A stretch of 64,000 nt of DNA from Taklimakanibacter albus (GTDB lineage Bacteria; Pseudomonadota; Alphaproteobacteria; Rhizobiales; Aestuariivirgaceae), in contig NZ_JAENHL010000004.1 of the NCBI RefSeq assembly GCF_016595235.1, positions 400,343-464,342 on the forward strand, written 5' to 3'. The translations under genes and the position numbers were made by a program. Below the pieces are notes generated by a model. The model ran no database searches. It had not been told where the DNA came from and worked only from the letters and a program-made list of their open reading frames with translations. This document shows positions 28,369 through 42,770 of the stretch, piece after piece. How positions within the stretch are numbered: the first letter of the stretch is position 1; the number at the start of each line of letters is the position of its first letter.

Positions 28369-28926
28369 TCAGATCTTCATGGCCTCGTGGCCGCGCGAAA
28401 TGGCGGCGATGCCGGTGCGCGACACTTCGACGAGACCAAGCGGCTGCATCAGCGAGATGAACTGATCGACCTTGCTGGTCTTGCCGGTCAGTTCGAAGAC
28501 GAAGCTTTCAGTCGTCGCATCGATGACATGGGCGCGGAAGGCGTCGGCGAGCCGCAGCGCTTCCATGCGCTTTTCACCCTTTCCCGCCACCTTGATGAGC
28601 GCCAATTCGCGCTCGATGGCGTTGCCCTGGACGGTGAGGTCGGCGACCGAATGCACCGGCACCATGCGCTCGAGCTGCGCCTTGATCTGCTCGATCACAT
28701 TGCTGGTGCCCGACGTCACGATGGTGATGCGCGAGACATGCGCATCATGCTCGGTCTCGGAGACGGTGAGCGAGTCGATATTGTAGCCGCGGCCCGAGAA
28801 CAGGCCGATGACACGGGCGAGGACGCCCGGCTCGTTGTCGACCACGACGCACAGCGTATGCGTCTCGACCGCGCGCTTACGATCATCGAGGAAATAGGCG
28901 GAAGCCGGTTGTGCTTGCATGTTCAT
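28369..28926 (-). CDS. ilvH: Acetolactate synthase small (regulatory) subunit
   Basis: This 185-residue subunit has an N-terminal ACT domain (THTLCVVVDNEPGVLARVIGLFSGRGYNI, residues 23-50) that binds valine for feedback inhibition, and a C-terminal ALS-SSU domain. It stabilises and regulates the large subunit. The start MNMQAQP lies 12 nt after the large-subunit stop, in one operon. The operon is controlled by the upstream attenuator found at 30769-30873. Confidence 0.95.
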   Translation of the reverse strand: MNMQAQPASAYFLDDRKRAVETHTLCVVVDNEPGVLARVIGLFSGRGYNIDSLTVSETEHDAHVSRITIVTSGTSNVIEQIKAQLERMVPVHSVADLTVQGNAIERELALIKVAGKGEKRMEALRLADAFRAHVIDATTESFVFELTGKTSKVDQFISLMQPLGLVEVSRTGIAAISRGHEAMKI

Positions 28927-28938
28927 TGTCGTTGTTCC

Positions 28939-30717
28939 TTACACCAGGACTTTGCCTTCGGCGCCGATCGCCTTTTCGATCTCATCATCCGGCACGTCCT
29001 CGCCGAGCAACATCTCGTTATGTGCCTTGCCCGAGGGAATCATCGGGAAGCAATTGGCGAGGCTCGCGACACGGCAGTCGAAGATCACCGGGCGGTCGAC
29101 CTCGATCATCGCCTTGATCGCGCTATCGAGCTCGGAAGGCTTTTCCGCTCGCATGCCGACCGCGCCATAGGCTTCCGCCAGCTTGACGAAATCGGGCAAT
29201 GCTTCCGAATAGCTTTCCGACAGGCGGTTGCCATGCAGGAGCTGCTGCCACTGGCGCACCATGCCCATATACTGGTTATTGAGGATGAAGATCTTGACCG
29301 GCAGGCGATACTGCACCGCAGTTGAAATCTCCTGCATCGTCATCAGCACCGAGGCATCGCCGGCGATGTCGATGACGAGACTCTTCGGATGCGCCATCTG
29401 CACGCCGATCGTGGCGGGAAGGCCATACCCCATCGTGCCGAGGCCGCCCGAGGTCATCCAGCGGTTCGGTTCCTCGAACTTGAAGAACTGCGCCGCCCAC
29501 ATCTGATGCTGGCCGACTTCGGTGGTGATATAGACATCCTTGTCGCGGGTCAGCGCATAAAGCCGCTCGATCGCATATTGCGGCATGATGACGTCCTTGC
29601 GCGCCTTGTATTTGAGGCTGTCGCGCGAACGCCACTGATCGATCTGCTTCCACCACTGGGCCAGCGCCGGCTTGTCGACCTGGTGCTGCCTGGCCTTCCA
29701 CACGCGGATGAAGTCTTCGAGCACATGAGCGCAGTCGCCGATGACGGGCAGATCGACGCGGACATTCTTGTTGACCGACGAGGGATCGATATCGACATGG
29801 ATCTTGCGCGAATGCGGCGAGAAGGCATCGACGCGGCCGGTGATGCGGTCATCGAAGCGCGCCCCGATATTGATCAGCACGTCGCAGCCATGCATGGCCA
29901 TATTGGCCTCGTAGGTTCCGTGCATGCCGAGCATGCCGAGCCAATGCTTGTCGGAAGCCGGGAAGGCACCGAGCCCCATCAAGGTCGAAGTGACCGGGAA
30001 GCCGGTCATCTTGACGAATTCGCGCAGGAGCTTCGAGGCCGCCGGACCCGAATTGATGACGCCGCCGCCGGTATAGAAGATCGGCCGCTTGGCGCTGGCG
30101 ATCAGGTCGACTGCGGCCCGCACCGCGTTCTGGTCGGGCTTCACCTTCGGGCGATAGGTCTTGTGCTGGATATTGCCGGGACCAACATAGGTGCCCTTGG
30201 CGAACTGGACATCCTTCGGCACGTCGACGACGACCGGGCCTGGACGGCCATTGGTCGCCACATAGAAGGCCTCGTGCAGAATGCGCGCCAGGTCGTTGAC
30301 GTTCTTCACCAGGTAATTGTGCTTGGTGCACGGCCTGGTGATGCCGACCGTGTCGCATTCCTGGAAGGCATCGTTGCCGATCAGATGGGTCGGCACCTGA
30401 CCGGTGATGCAGACCATCGGGATCGAATCCATGAGCGCATCGGTGAGACCGGTGACCGCATTGGTGGCGCCGGGGCCGGAGGTGACGAGGACGACGCCGG
30501 GCTTGCCGGTGGAACGGGCATAACCTTCCGCCGCATGGGTGGCGCCCTGCTCGTGGCGCACCAGGATGTGCTTCACCTTCTCCTGCTGGAAGATCTCGTC
30601 ATAGATCGGGAGAACCGCGCCTCCCGGATAGCCGAATATATGTTCGACCCCTTGATCCGCCAGCGCCTTCAAAATGATCTCGGCGCCTGTCATTTGCTCA
30701 TCGCTTCGGCCAGCCAT
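28939..30717 (-). CDS. ilvI: Acetolactate synthase large subunit
   Basis: This 592-residue TPP- and FAD-dependent enzyme condenses two pyruvates, or pyruvate and 2-oxobutyrate, in the first common step of branched-chain amino acid synthesis. It shows the HEQGATHAAEGYAR motif with the catalytic glutamate near residue 54, GRPGPVVVDVPKD, and the TPP/Mg motif GDASVLMTMQEI...ILNN near residue 450. The length is standard. The ATG at 30717 follows GAGGACG. Expression appears to be controlled by a branched-chain-codon leader peptide and terminator just upstream. The name ilvB could equally be used. Confidence 0.96.
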   Translation of the reverse strand: MAGRSDEQMTGAEIILKALADQGVEHIFGYPGGAVLPIYDEIFQQEKVKHILVRHEQGATHAAEGYARSTGKPGVVLVTSGPGATNAVTGLTDALMDSIPMVCITGQVPTHLIGNDAFQECDTVGITRPCTKHNYLVKNVNDLARILHEAFYVATNGRPGPVVVDVPKDVQFAKGTYVGPGNIQHKTYRPKVKPDQNAVRAAVDLIASAKRPIFYTGGGVINSGPAASKLLREFVKMTGFPVTSTLMGLGAFPASDKHWLGMLGMHGTYEANMAMHGCDVLINIGARFDDRITGRVDAFSPHSRKIHVDIDPSSVNKNVRVDLPVIGDCAHVLEDFIRVWKARQHQVDKPALAQWWKQIDQWRSRDSLKYKARKDVIMPQYAIERLYALTRDKDVYITTEVGQHQMWAAQFFKFEEPNRWMTSGGLGTMGYGLPATIGVQMAHPKSLVIDIAGDASVLMTMQEISTAVQYRLPVKIFILNNQYMGMVRQWQQLLHGNRLSESYSEALPDFVKLAEAYGAVGMRAEKPSELDSAIKAMIEVDRPVIFDCRVASLANCFPMIPSGKAHNEMLLGEDVPDDEIEKAIGAEGKVLV

Positions 30718-30768
30718 CGTCCTCTTCCTTCCTCTTTATCCTCGTGCTTCCGTTCCATCGCGGGCAAT

Positions 30769-30792
30769 AAAAAAGGCCCCCGAGGGAGCCTT
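30769..30792 (-). terminator. Attenuator terminator in the ilvI leader
   Basis: On the minus strand the sequence AAGGCTCCC-TC-GGGGGCCTT folds into a GC-rich stem with one G-T pair and is followed by TTTTTT, an intrinsic terminator. It lies between the leader peptide stop (30820) and the ilvI start (30717), the position expected of an attenuator. An upstream hairpin (GGCAGC/GCTGCC) overlaps the leader stop codon, and a longer GCGCGTC/GACGCGC stem encloses it. Both could serve as alternative structures. Confidence 0.85.
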
Positions 30793-30819
30793 TTGCGCGT
30801 CAGCCAGTATCGTGGCAGC

Positions 30820-30873
30820 TTAGGCTGCCCCGGCGACGCGCATTCCTACGATAAGAACGAGAGATTGGTTCAT
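30820..30873 (-). CDS. ilvIH leader peptide (attenuator)
   Basis: This 17-codon reading frame, MNQSLVLIVGMRVAGAA then TAA, lies in the leader upstream of ilvI. Residues 5-9 are Leu-Val-Leu-Ile-Val, the amino acids made by the pathway, and Val13 is a further control-type codon. CTT and GTA, uncommon in this GC-rich genome, are used among them. An intrinsic terminator follows 28 nt after the stop. In the classic attenuation model, shortage of charged Leu, Val or Ile tRNA stalls the ribosome on these codons and prevents terminator formation. It is too short for ordinary gene finders. The role is inferred from the arrangement, which is very specific. Confidence 0.85.
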   Translation of the reverse strand: MNQSLVLIVGMRVAGAA

Positions 30874-30905
30874 GGCGAGCCTTGTAGTGGCCCTCGCGGC
30901 AAAGG

Positions 30906-31775
30906 TCAAGCGCGTCGCTCTTCCCAGCCGGGCATCTGGTGGCGCCACCAGGTCAACTGGCGTTTTATATACTGCCTGGTGGCGGTCTGGCCGGCCGCGA
31001 TGGCGTCCTCCAGGCCCCGCCAGCCCGACAACCAGGCCGCCAATTGCTTGACCCCGATGGCCTTCATGACCGGCACATTGGGGTCGAGCCCCAGCGCCAG
31101 CAGCGCCTTGACTTCCTCGACCGCCCCCTCTTTCACCATGCGGGCGAAACGCTCATCGGCTCTGGCGTGAAGGATCTTGCGGTCCGGATTGAGGAATATC
31201 CGCTCGACCGCCACCCCTGCCAGCACAGCCTGGCCCTGGGCCGCCCGCTGCCAGTGATCGAGCGGCTTGCCGGTGCCCTCGAAGACCTCGAGCGCCCGGA
31301 TGATCCGCTGCCGGTCGTTAGGGTTAAGCCGCGCCGCCGCTCCCTCGTCGCGCTTGGCAAGCTCGGCATGGAGATCGCCCTTGGCGTCCCGCCATTTCTG
31401 CGTGATGTCCGGCGGGATCAGCGGGATATCGGCGAGCCCCTGCTCCAGCGCCTTGAAATAGAGCCCGGTCCCACCGGTGATGACGGGAACGCGCCCCGAG
31501 CGCCACACCGCCTCGAGCTCGGCCGTCGCATCGGCGAGCCAGCGCGCCACCGAATAGGCGCTCGCTCCCGACACATGTCCGTAGAGCCGGTGCGGCACCT
31601 GTGCCTCGTCCTCTTCGCTGGGCCGGGCGGTCAGGATGCGCAAGTCGCGATAGACCTGCATCGCATCGGCATTGACGATGACGCCGCCCTTCTCATGCGC
31701 GAGCGCGATCGCCAATGCCGACTTGCCGCTGGCAGTCGGTCCTGCGATAAGCACCGCTCGCTTTTCCAAGGACAT
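30906..31775 (-). CDS. miaA: tRNA dimethylallyltransferase
   Basis: This 289-residue enzyme prenylates A37 of tRNAs that read UNN codons. It has the P-loop GPTASGKSALA near residue 12, the NADAMQVYRDL segment, the TGGTGLYFKAL motif near 100, and the C-terminal KAIGVKQLAAWLSG and TRQYIKRQLTWWR segments. The start codon is only 6 nt from that of divergent serB. Its ribosome binding site (GGAG at 31787-31790) therefore lies within the serB coding region, and the promoter must too. The gene ends 33 nt before the ilvI leader peptide start on the same strand, so readthrough into the attenuator is possible. Confidence 0.95.
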   Translation of the reverse strand: MSLEKRAVLIAGPTASGKSALAIALAHEKGGVIVNADAMQVYRDLRILTARPSEEDEAQVPHRLYGHVSGASAYSVARWLADATAELEAVWRSGRVPVITGGTGLYFKALEQGLADIPLIPPDITQKWRDAKGDLHAELAKRDEGAAARLNPNDRQRIIRALEVFEGTGKPLDHWQRAAQGQAVLAGVAVERIFLNPDRKILHARADERFARMVKEGAVEEVKALLALGLDPNVPVMKAIGVKQLAAWLSGWRGLEDAIAAGQTATRQYIKRQLTWWRHQMPGWEERRA

Positions 31776-42279: not shown

Positions 42280-42410
42280 CTTTTGTCCCCGTGTCTACAA
42301 AGGTTAACGCCGCGCCGCCGGCACGGCTTGGCAAGTTGGGTTCCAATTCATGGCGTTTTTGCGGTGGCGATCGGGGAAAAAGGTCTTACCCGGGCGTAAC
42401 ACCTTGCTCC

Positions 42411-42439
42411 TTTTCATTAGGCGTGGGGGCGCCTATATT
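42411..42439 (+). promoter_or_regulatory. Putative ssrA promoter
   Basis: A TATATT -10 box at 42434-42439 lies 17 nt after a weak TTTTCA -35-like box at 42411-42416. A start near 42446 would give an acceptor piece of about 84 nt, the size known for two-piece tmRNAs. Confidence 0.45.
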
Positions 42440-42445
42440 GGGTCT

Positions 42446-42770
42446 GCCACCCGCAAGGGCGGCTATGGCGATAAATGGCCATCGTAATAAACCCATCGGA
42501 CCCGGGGGCGGTACCCGGCGCCTCCACCATGGACCGCAGTAACCTGCGGCCCATGATGGGGGCGAAATAGGATCGACGAGGGCGTAAAGGGTGAGCTTTT
42601 GCTCGAGTTGGCTCCGACGTAACGGGCCACTATTATAGTTGCCAATGACAACTATGCTCCGGCCGCTCTCGCTGCTTAATGCAGCGCGTAAGCCGAAATC
42701 AAAGTCCTTGGCCTTAGCCGGTTAAGGCGGGGTTCGCAGGCACCTGGCAACAGAAGCCTGCACTTCTCCC
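42446..42770 (+). ncRNA. ssrA: Two-piece (permuted) tmRNA
   Basis: The gene has the alphaproteobacterial permuted order. The acceptor piece comes first and ends CGCCTCC-A-CCA (42519-42529), with a T-stem CCGGG/CCCGG just before it. A spacer (42530-42557) with the hairpin GACCGCAG/CTGCGGCC is removed in maturation. The coding piece starts GGGGGCG (42558-42564), which pairs perfectly with CGCCTCC including a G-U third pair, the alanine identity signal. The tag frame is 42641-42679. It rescues stalled ribosomes with SmpB and adds a ClpXP degradation tag. Outer ends are estimates. The T-loop reads GGCGGTA rather than TTCRANT. Confidence 0.95.
42641..42679 (+). other. tmRNA tag reading frame
   Basis: GCC AAT GAC AAC TAT GCT CCG GCC GCT CTC GCT GCT TAA encodes ANDNYAPAALAA, the proteolysis tag. 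AND at the start is the SspB contact and LAA at the end the ClpX contact in characterised tags. The resume codon is GCC. Confidence 0.95.

Follow-up and report, generated by a model that had tools for sequence, protein, structure and literature searches.

Genes and features around the ilvIH leader

The DNA analysed here (the window) comprises 64,000 nucleotides of Taklimakanibacter albus and carries on its minus strand the gene miaA, a short leader region and the genes ilvI and ilvH for the two subunits of acetolactate synthase. In the direction of transcription, the following features are present:

ends at 30906, minus strand: miaA (TIGR00174), the upstream neighbour of the leader
30904..30909, minus strand: -35-like box TTGACC, overlapping the miaA stop codon (30906-30908)
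30881..30886, minus strand: -10-like box TACAAG, 17 nt past the -35 box and 7 nt ahead of the leader ATG
30820..30873, minus strand: leader peptide frame MNQSLVLIVGMRVAGAA plus stop codon; the predicted transcript start is its A (30873)
leader codons 5-9, minus strand: control codons CUC GUU CUU AUC GUA (Leu5 Val6 Leu7 Ile8 Val9)
30847..30849, minus strand: codon GUA for Val9, which closes the run and is the key sensor predicted by masked folding
about 30795..30841, minus strand: competing (1:2) hairpin around the stop codon, -27.3 kcal/mol by folding, with covarying pairs in 25 aligned leaders
30822..30832, minus strand: predicted antiterminator 5' half CGGGGcAGCCU (from masked folding)
30781..30791, minus strand: predicted antiterminator 3' half AGGCUcCCUCG (from masked folding), overlapping the terminator 5' arm
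30769..30794, minus strand: intrinsic terminator AAAAGGCUCCC-UCGG-GGGCCUUUUUU (by folding), ending in six U at 30769
28939..30717, minus strand: ilvI, acetolactate synthase large subunit (NCBIfam equivalog NF006581, 1170 bits, cut-off 974)
28369..28926, minus strand: ilvH, acetolactate synthase small subunit, next after ilvI (NCBIfam equivalog NF008864, 229 bits, cut-off 119)

The leader frame reads ATG AAC CAA TCT CTC GTT CTT ATC GTA GGA ATG CGC GTC GCC GGG GCA GCC TAA. An earlier note on this DNA had placed a leader-peptide attenuator of ilvIH at 30769..30873, consisting of a 17-codon frame with five consecutive branched-chain codons, a hairpin at the stop codon and a terminator with six T residues. 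All of these elements are indeed in place before ilvI and the coordinates are correct; the strand, which had been left unstated, is the minus strand. A short frame with tandem cognate codons precedes its cognate operon, and an intrinsic terminator lies between the leader stop codon and the first gene. The 121-nt stretch folds with -53.2 kcal/mol, corresponding to a z value of -4.1 against 200 shuffles. We conclude that the element is very probably a ribosome-mediated transcription attenuator of ilvIH of the branched-chain leader type, and the conserved codons as well as the conserved and covarying hairpins described below support this assignment.

A consensus scanner applied to positions 30600-31100 called neither a promoter nor a terminator. 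As we read its rules, it demands the final T of the -10 box, which here is TACAAG, and five T within eight bases after the stem, whereas the terminator stem at this locus absorbs most of the T run. A plasmid search with the 211-nt stretch as the query returned no matches. An open frame of 593 amino acids runs antisense across ilvI and the leader (window positions 29389-31170, plus strand) and is probably an artefact of GC-rich sequence. Elsewhere in the window, an alphaproteobacterial tmRNA gene is present at 42407-42764 on the plus strand (RF01849, 286 bits), which is also matched by the permuted tmRNA model of Rfam.

Conservation of the leader and its relation to Rfam Atu_C8

Two sets of loci were compared: ilvI upstream regions at the genus, family and order level (30 loci including the window; all 40 genomes searched gave matches), and a set made up of the best 80 of 586 candidate ilvI loci, which on account of this selection is not an even sample. 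Three of the 110 loci (L027, L064 and L078) were dropped because of short upstream sequence, leaving 107 for a strict test that asked for a frame 8-30 codons long in which four or more out of five consecutive codons specify Ile, Leu or Val, followed by a terminator before ilvI. This arrangement was found at 84 of the 107 loci including the window (83 of 106 relatives; 22 of 29 in the genus, family and order set and 62 of 78 in the set of the best 80 of 586), and in none of 2140 dinucleotide shuffles. Four Parvibaculum loci as well as those of Rhodomicrobium and Paracoccus limosus are among the 23 that failed. The comparison of relatives' ilvI upstream regions that the earlier note had proposed as a check thus came out in favour of a conserved leader and terminator, and the hairpins covary.

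For a closer inspection, 87 leaders were chosen by eye; they are mutually related and contain 81 distinct frames. A terminator was found 3' of 86 of them using a permissive script of our own that was run with no control. Covariation was assessed in 25 aligned leaders, in which 12 of 21 consensus pairs have changed on both sides and yet still pair. Paired cells amount to 91.8%, compared with 80.8% after shuffling and 37-55% with slid partners, and doubly changed cells number 69, compared with a mean of 22.4 for shuffles and at most 17 for slid partners. None of 500 shuffles attained any of the five covariation measures; the alignment behind these figures was also the source of the structure, which tips them in its favour. 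In the inner stem, the weakest part, 80% of the cells are paired.

The position of promoter-like motifs is informative about the start of the leader. Outside the Rhodobacterales, a label that we assigned from the organism names of the records, 29 of 52 leaders have a TTGAC whose first base lies 36 or 37 nt ahead of the start codon (L008, entered with the wrong first codon AAA, is counted as lacking this box). Counting the whole zone from -41 to -34, the motif is present in 32 of the 52, five of which have a Shine-Dalgarno-like motif, for which as little as 4 nt was accepted, and absent in the other 20. Across all 87 leaders, this zone holds TTGAC at 34 of its 688 positions, and the remaining sequence at 76 of 35199. 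In the window genome and four congeners, TTGAC and TACAAGGCTCGCC before the ATG are retained with a spacer that varies, and the -10-like TACAAG, the last base of which is off consensus, is identical. A -35 box 36 nt ahead of the ATG would make transcription begin right at the ATG, and the leader frame in the window is therefore probably leaderless, a reading based on promoter position. In the Rhodobacterales leaders (n = 35), TTGAC is mostly found at -51 to -65 and a Shine-Dalgarno-like motif is present in 28, so that leaderless initiation cannot be extended to every relative.

The leader region also resembles a described RNA family. RF02502 (Atu_C8, named 'Rhizobiales sRNA' in Rfam) aligns over its full length (1-122) to positions 30874-30759 with 48.9 bits and an E-value of 1.8e-9, a score that lies below the gathering cut-off of 50 bits; consensus structure and genomic place agree with those of the family matches. 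Searched with Rfam at gathering cut-offs, the whole window yielded tmRNA models only, and the Atu_C8 match came from an E-value search of the small stretch. The earlier note had expected the element to be normally unannotated. The peptide may indeed escape annotation; for the RNA, Atu_C8 is a relative just short of the threshold.

Among 20 ilvI loci examined, seven score above the Atu_C8 cut-off, all directly before ilvI, including those of Agrobacterium, Sinorhizobium and a relative from the same family as the window genome (L015 in G005, 74.4 bits), and none of the 15 loci failing the strict test in the set of the best 80 of 586 gave a match. In 21 genomes or records selected for holding an ilvI leader or a gene for a transporter of the MFS type, 20 contained matches, 25 altogether, of which 18 lie before ilvI (one per genome) and seven before the MFS gene. 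Because every one of the 25 matches precedes one of these two genes, we take Atu_C8 to be the leader RNA released by termination. In 20 of these 25 matches, by our reading, the first position of the model falls on the third base of the leader ATG, and we assume that this position corresponds to a measured RNA end.

A class-wide search with strict filters retrieved Atu_C8 from 6 of 289 genomes at seven places: one is the window, two (G228 and G291) lie directly before ilvI and one (G146) before an MFS gene. The other three (two in G131 and one in G314) have neither ilvI nor an MFS gene beside them as judged by eye, look like chance terminators and were rejected, and a match of 30.6 bits in G352, below the cut-off, was set aside. 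The model is too narrow for the class, and our own frame test was used in its place. According to the accessible part of PMC3738593, 32 of Wilms' sRNAs from Agrobacterium look like parts of 5' UTRs; ilv is unmentioned there. A literature search, the reach of which ended short of Wilms et al. and Vitreschak 2004, found no statement linking Atu_C8 with ilvI. The matches suggest that Atu_C8, now classed among the sRNAs, belongs with the cis attenuators.

Ribosome position and the choice between RNA structures

The effect of a stalled ribosome was modelled by folding the RNA with the ribosome-covered part masked, using a standard footprint of 13 nt, an RNA end in the terminator loop and, for comparison, footprints of 10-18 nt. 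Without a ribosome, or with a stall at Leu5, Val6 or Leu7, folding yields the long hairpin of -27.3 kcal/mol, after which terminator formation is possible. If Val9 occupies the A site, this hairpin loses its 5' arm to the mask, and CGGGGcAGCCU pairs with AGGCUcCCUCG, a segment that contains the terminator's 5' arm. Upstream pairing of the terminator arm accordingly amounts to 0.15-0.21 for stalls at codons 5-8 and to 0.73 at Val9 with the 13-nt footprint. The value for Val9 is at least 0.73 at all footprints of at least 13 nt, the antiterminator is opened by a stall at Ile8 only at footprints of at least 16 nt, and at footprints of 10-12 nt only codons past Val9 open it. For a ribosome at the stop codon, upstream pairing of the arm is still 0.44 through a weak fold of -2.2 kcal/mol, which in the model is outcompeted by the terminator. 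The Val9 value also varies with the RNA end, dropping to 0.35 when the RNA is 3 nt shorter and to 0.04 when half of the terminator 3' arm has been transcribed. As the complete terminator wins in every ribosome state in masked folding, the switch would have to be kinetic. A mutually exclusive antiterminator opened by a control-codon stall is thus found in silico, given a footprint of at least 13 nt and a suitable RNA end.

The same calculation was applied to the relatives by comparing a stall two codons earlier with a stall at the last codon of the run or the next one, taking the better of the two for leaders and shuffles alike. Outside the Rhodobacterales, arm pairing rose by more than 0.2 in 46 of 51 loci (mean 0.40, shuffles 0.007). 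The model is weak in the Rhodobacterales, where only 10 of 35 loci passed this mark (mean 0.15, shuffles 0.005).

From the sequence, its conservation, the covariation of the long hairpin and the terminator, and the predicted structures, we infer a start site, translation, stalling and readthrough that would combine as follows. RNA polymerase would start at or beside the A of the leader ATG, and the first ribosome would load at the 5' end of the RNA without a Shine-Dalgarno site. When charged tRNAs are ample, the ribosome would reach the stop codon and hide the 5' half of the antiterminator, leaving the terminator free to form and transcription to end with a short RNA of about 105 nt. When charged tRNA-Val, and perhaps tRNA-Ile, is scarce, the ribosome would stall at codon 9 (or 8) and hide the long hairpin's 5' arm; the antiterminator would then form first and the polymerase would continue into ilvIH.

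The classical multivalent version of attenuation, in which a stall at any of the five codons for Leu, Val and Ile relieves termination, corresponds to the proposal of the earlier note that a shortage of each of the three amino acids acts here. The runs of relatives often include Leu and Ile codons (positions last-1 to last-4), and a footprint of at least 16 nt adds Ile8 to the effective codons; Leu5, Val6 and Leu7, on the other hand, never exceed an arm pairing of 0.33 at any footprint from 10 to 18 nt. Moreover, the last codon of the run, the one nearest to the hairpin, specifies Val in 81 of the 87 related leaders (81 distinct frames), Ile in three and Leu in three. Taken together, masked folding and this bias weaken the claim for all three amino acids compared with its earlier form: it stands for Val9, and for Ile8 with a wide footprint, and not for the first three codons of the run. 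We regard the multivalent version as rather unlikely; the signal sensed by the attenuator is likely Val, perhaps also Ile, as far as the folding model can tell. The last run codon is GTA in 46 and GTG in 28 of the 87 leaders. These codons make up 3.1% and 34.5%, respectively, of the Val codons in 40 long window frames that were chosen greedily and some of which may not be genes. Since GTG is common in these frames, the use of rare codons is no general rule.

A second alternative is that the terminated RNA or the 17-residue peptide additionally acts in trans on other mRNAs, as rnTrpL and peTrpL do in Sinorhizobium meliloti. The matching family Atu_C8 is typed as an sRNA, and a leaderless attenuator RNA with trans roles is described for a related bacterium in the accessible text of PMC7298713. 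The peptide end is conserved (RxxG, RMGR), but the codons concerned are those that build the covarying hairpin. The conserved end is thus explained without a peptide function, which we rejected as unneeded, and a trans role appears improbable. That a chance frame lies next to an ordinary miaA terminator and leaves ilvIH unregulated would fit a terminator only about 110 nt past the miaA stop codon and a promoter that is off consensus, yet this idea can practically be dismissed in view of an arrangement absent from all shuffles and of control codons, spacing and covarying stems that are all conserved.

MFS-linked copies and known systems

Leaders of this type are found not only before ilvI. In another family, 6 of 36 genomes (G146, G342-G346) have the same kind of leader before a gene for an MFS transporter of the Bcr/CflA type, and a second, MFS-linked copy is present in 5 of 17 Rhizobiales genomes (four Rhizobium and one 'Rhizobiales bacterium') and also on two Rhizobium plasmid records. 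The MFS-linked leaders carry a terminator and a TTGAC-type promoter (loci L111, L118-L122, L140, L141 and L160-L164, near position 1500). Among the six genomes of the other family, the transporter was identified by TIGR00710 for L111 only (212.8 bits, cut-off 200.9), the other five being alike by eye; all seven transporters from the five Rhizobiales genomes and the two plasmids share 46-51% identity with the L111 protein.

In the family of G146, no conserved branched-chain leader is evident at nine ilvI loci (L126-L134), five of which come from the six genomes with an MFS leader, and no ilvI match was found in G346. Frames with four of five Ile, Leu or Val codons at L126 and L129 lie before a promoter-like TTGAC and look like chance. 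The ilvI upstream regions of this family contain a promoter-like TTGAC and, at several loci, a GC-rich hairpin. Another control may have replaced the branched-chain leader before ilvI in this family.

Two further observations concern homologous or similar transporter loci. In Burkholderia arboris (L139, about 715-765), a similar frame, MKTACFIVVVHRRRVR, and what by eye is a GC-rich terminator precede an MFS match; a search of this locus with Atu_C8 gave no match, and as judged from the sequence it is a possible betaproteobacterial case. On plasmid pAt2 of Agrobacterium tumefaciens, a TPP riboswitch (RF00059, 74.6 bits, L135:724-840) lies before a homologous MFS gene, in the place held by the branched-chain leader in other lineages.

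Nutrient state may be what these MFS transporters answer to; alternatively, the leader may respond to ribosome stalling in a broader sense. Of the leads from this analysis, the MFS-linked copies are the newest, and they offer a concrete hint as to what a poorly understood group of transporters responds to. A wider proposal, to which we give an even chance, is that Atu_C8 represents the RNA released by termination at a leaderless attenuator weighted towards valine, not a family of trans-acting sRNAs, and that this attenuator is a portable part, used for ilvIH in alphaproteobacteria and copied before a Bcr/CflA-type MFS gene in Rhizobium and one other family, where it would make the transporter depend on tRNA charging or, more broadly, on the stalling of ribosomes.

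With regard to its class, the element in the window belongs to a known kind, since attenuation of ilv genes has been reported for S. meliloti and Caulobacter. In the parts of these sources available to us, an 'ilvIH cis regulatory' element of S. meliloti is listed in Table 3 of PMC2573895, citing Vitreschak 2004, the Caulobacter ilvIH operon is stated to be under attenuation in PMC4117421, citing Tarleton 1994, and an ilvB leader peptide in alphaproteobacteria is mentioned as already described earlier in PMC1273637. The main texts of papers on an S. meliloti start-site map and ribosome profile do not mention ilv, nor do those of PMC4201532, PMC5596092 and PMC2881028. The alphaproteobacterial ilvIH and ilvBN attenuators of S. 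meliloti and Caulobacter likewise rely, as far as these sources go, on a branched-chain leader before acetolactate synthase genes. The window differs in representing a new genus and in the leaderless start and the weighting towards Val that we argue for here. Both of these points, as well as the match to Atu_C8, go beyond the earlier note. Our findings indicate that a known control of branched-chain synthesis extends to this lineage, and they lead to a prediction at the level of a single codon, namely Val9 and not any branched-chain codon.

Atu_C8 resembles the element in its end-to-end alignment, its structure and its place before ilvI; it differs in that Rfam types it as an sRNA gene and not as a cis leader, and in that the score of the window falls short of the cut-off. 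A more distant counterpart is the ilvBNC attenuator of Corynebacterium glutamicum, for which leaderless initiation is discussed in the available text of PMC11857589. This is likewise an ilv operon with a leader peptide, from a distant phylum and likened here by description. In the S. meliloti rnTrpL/peTrpL system, the leaderless trp attenuator RNA begins with the ATG of its leader frame, as described in the accessible part of PMC7298713; the position of the promoter and the start of the Atu_C8 model point to a similar 5' end for the leader in the window. The S. meliloti system differs in its Trp codons, in the operon that it controls and in the trans functions demonstrated for S. meliloti.
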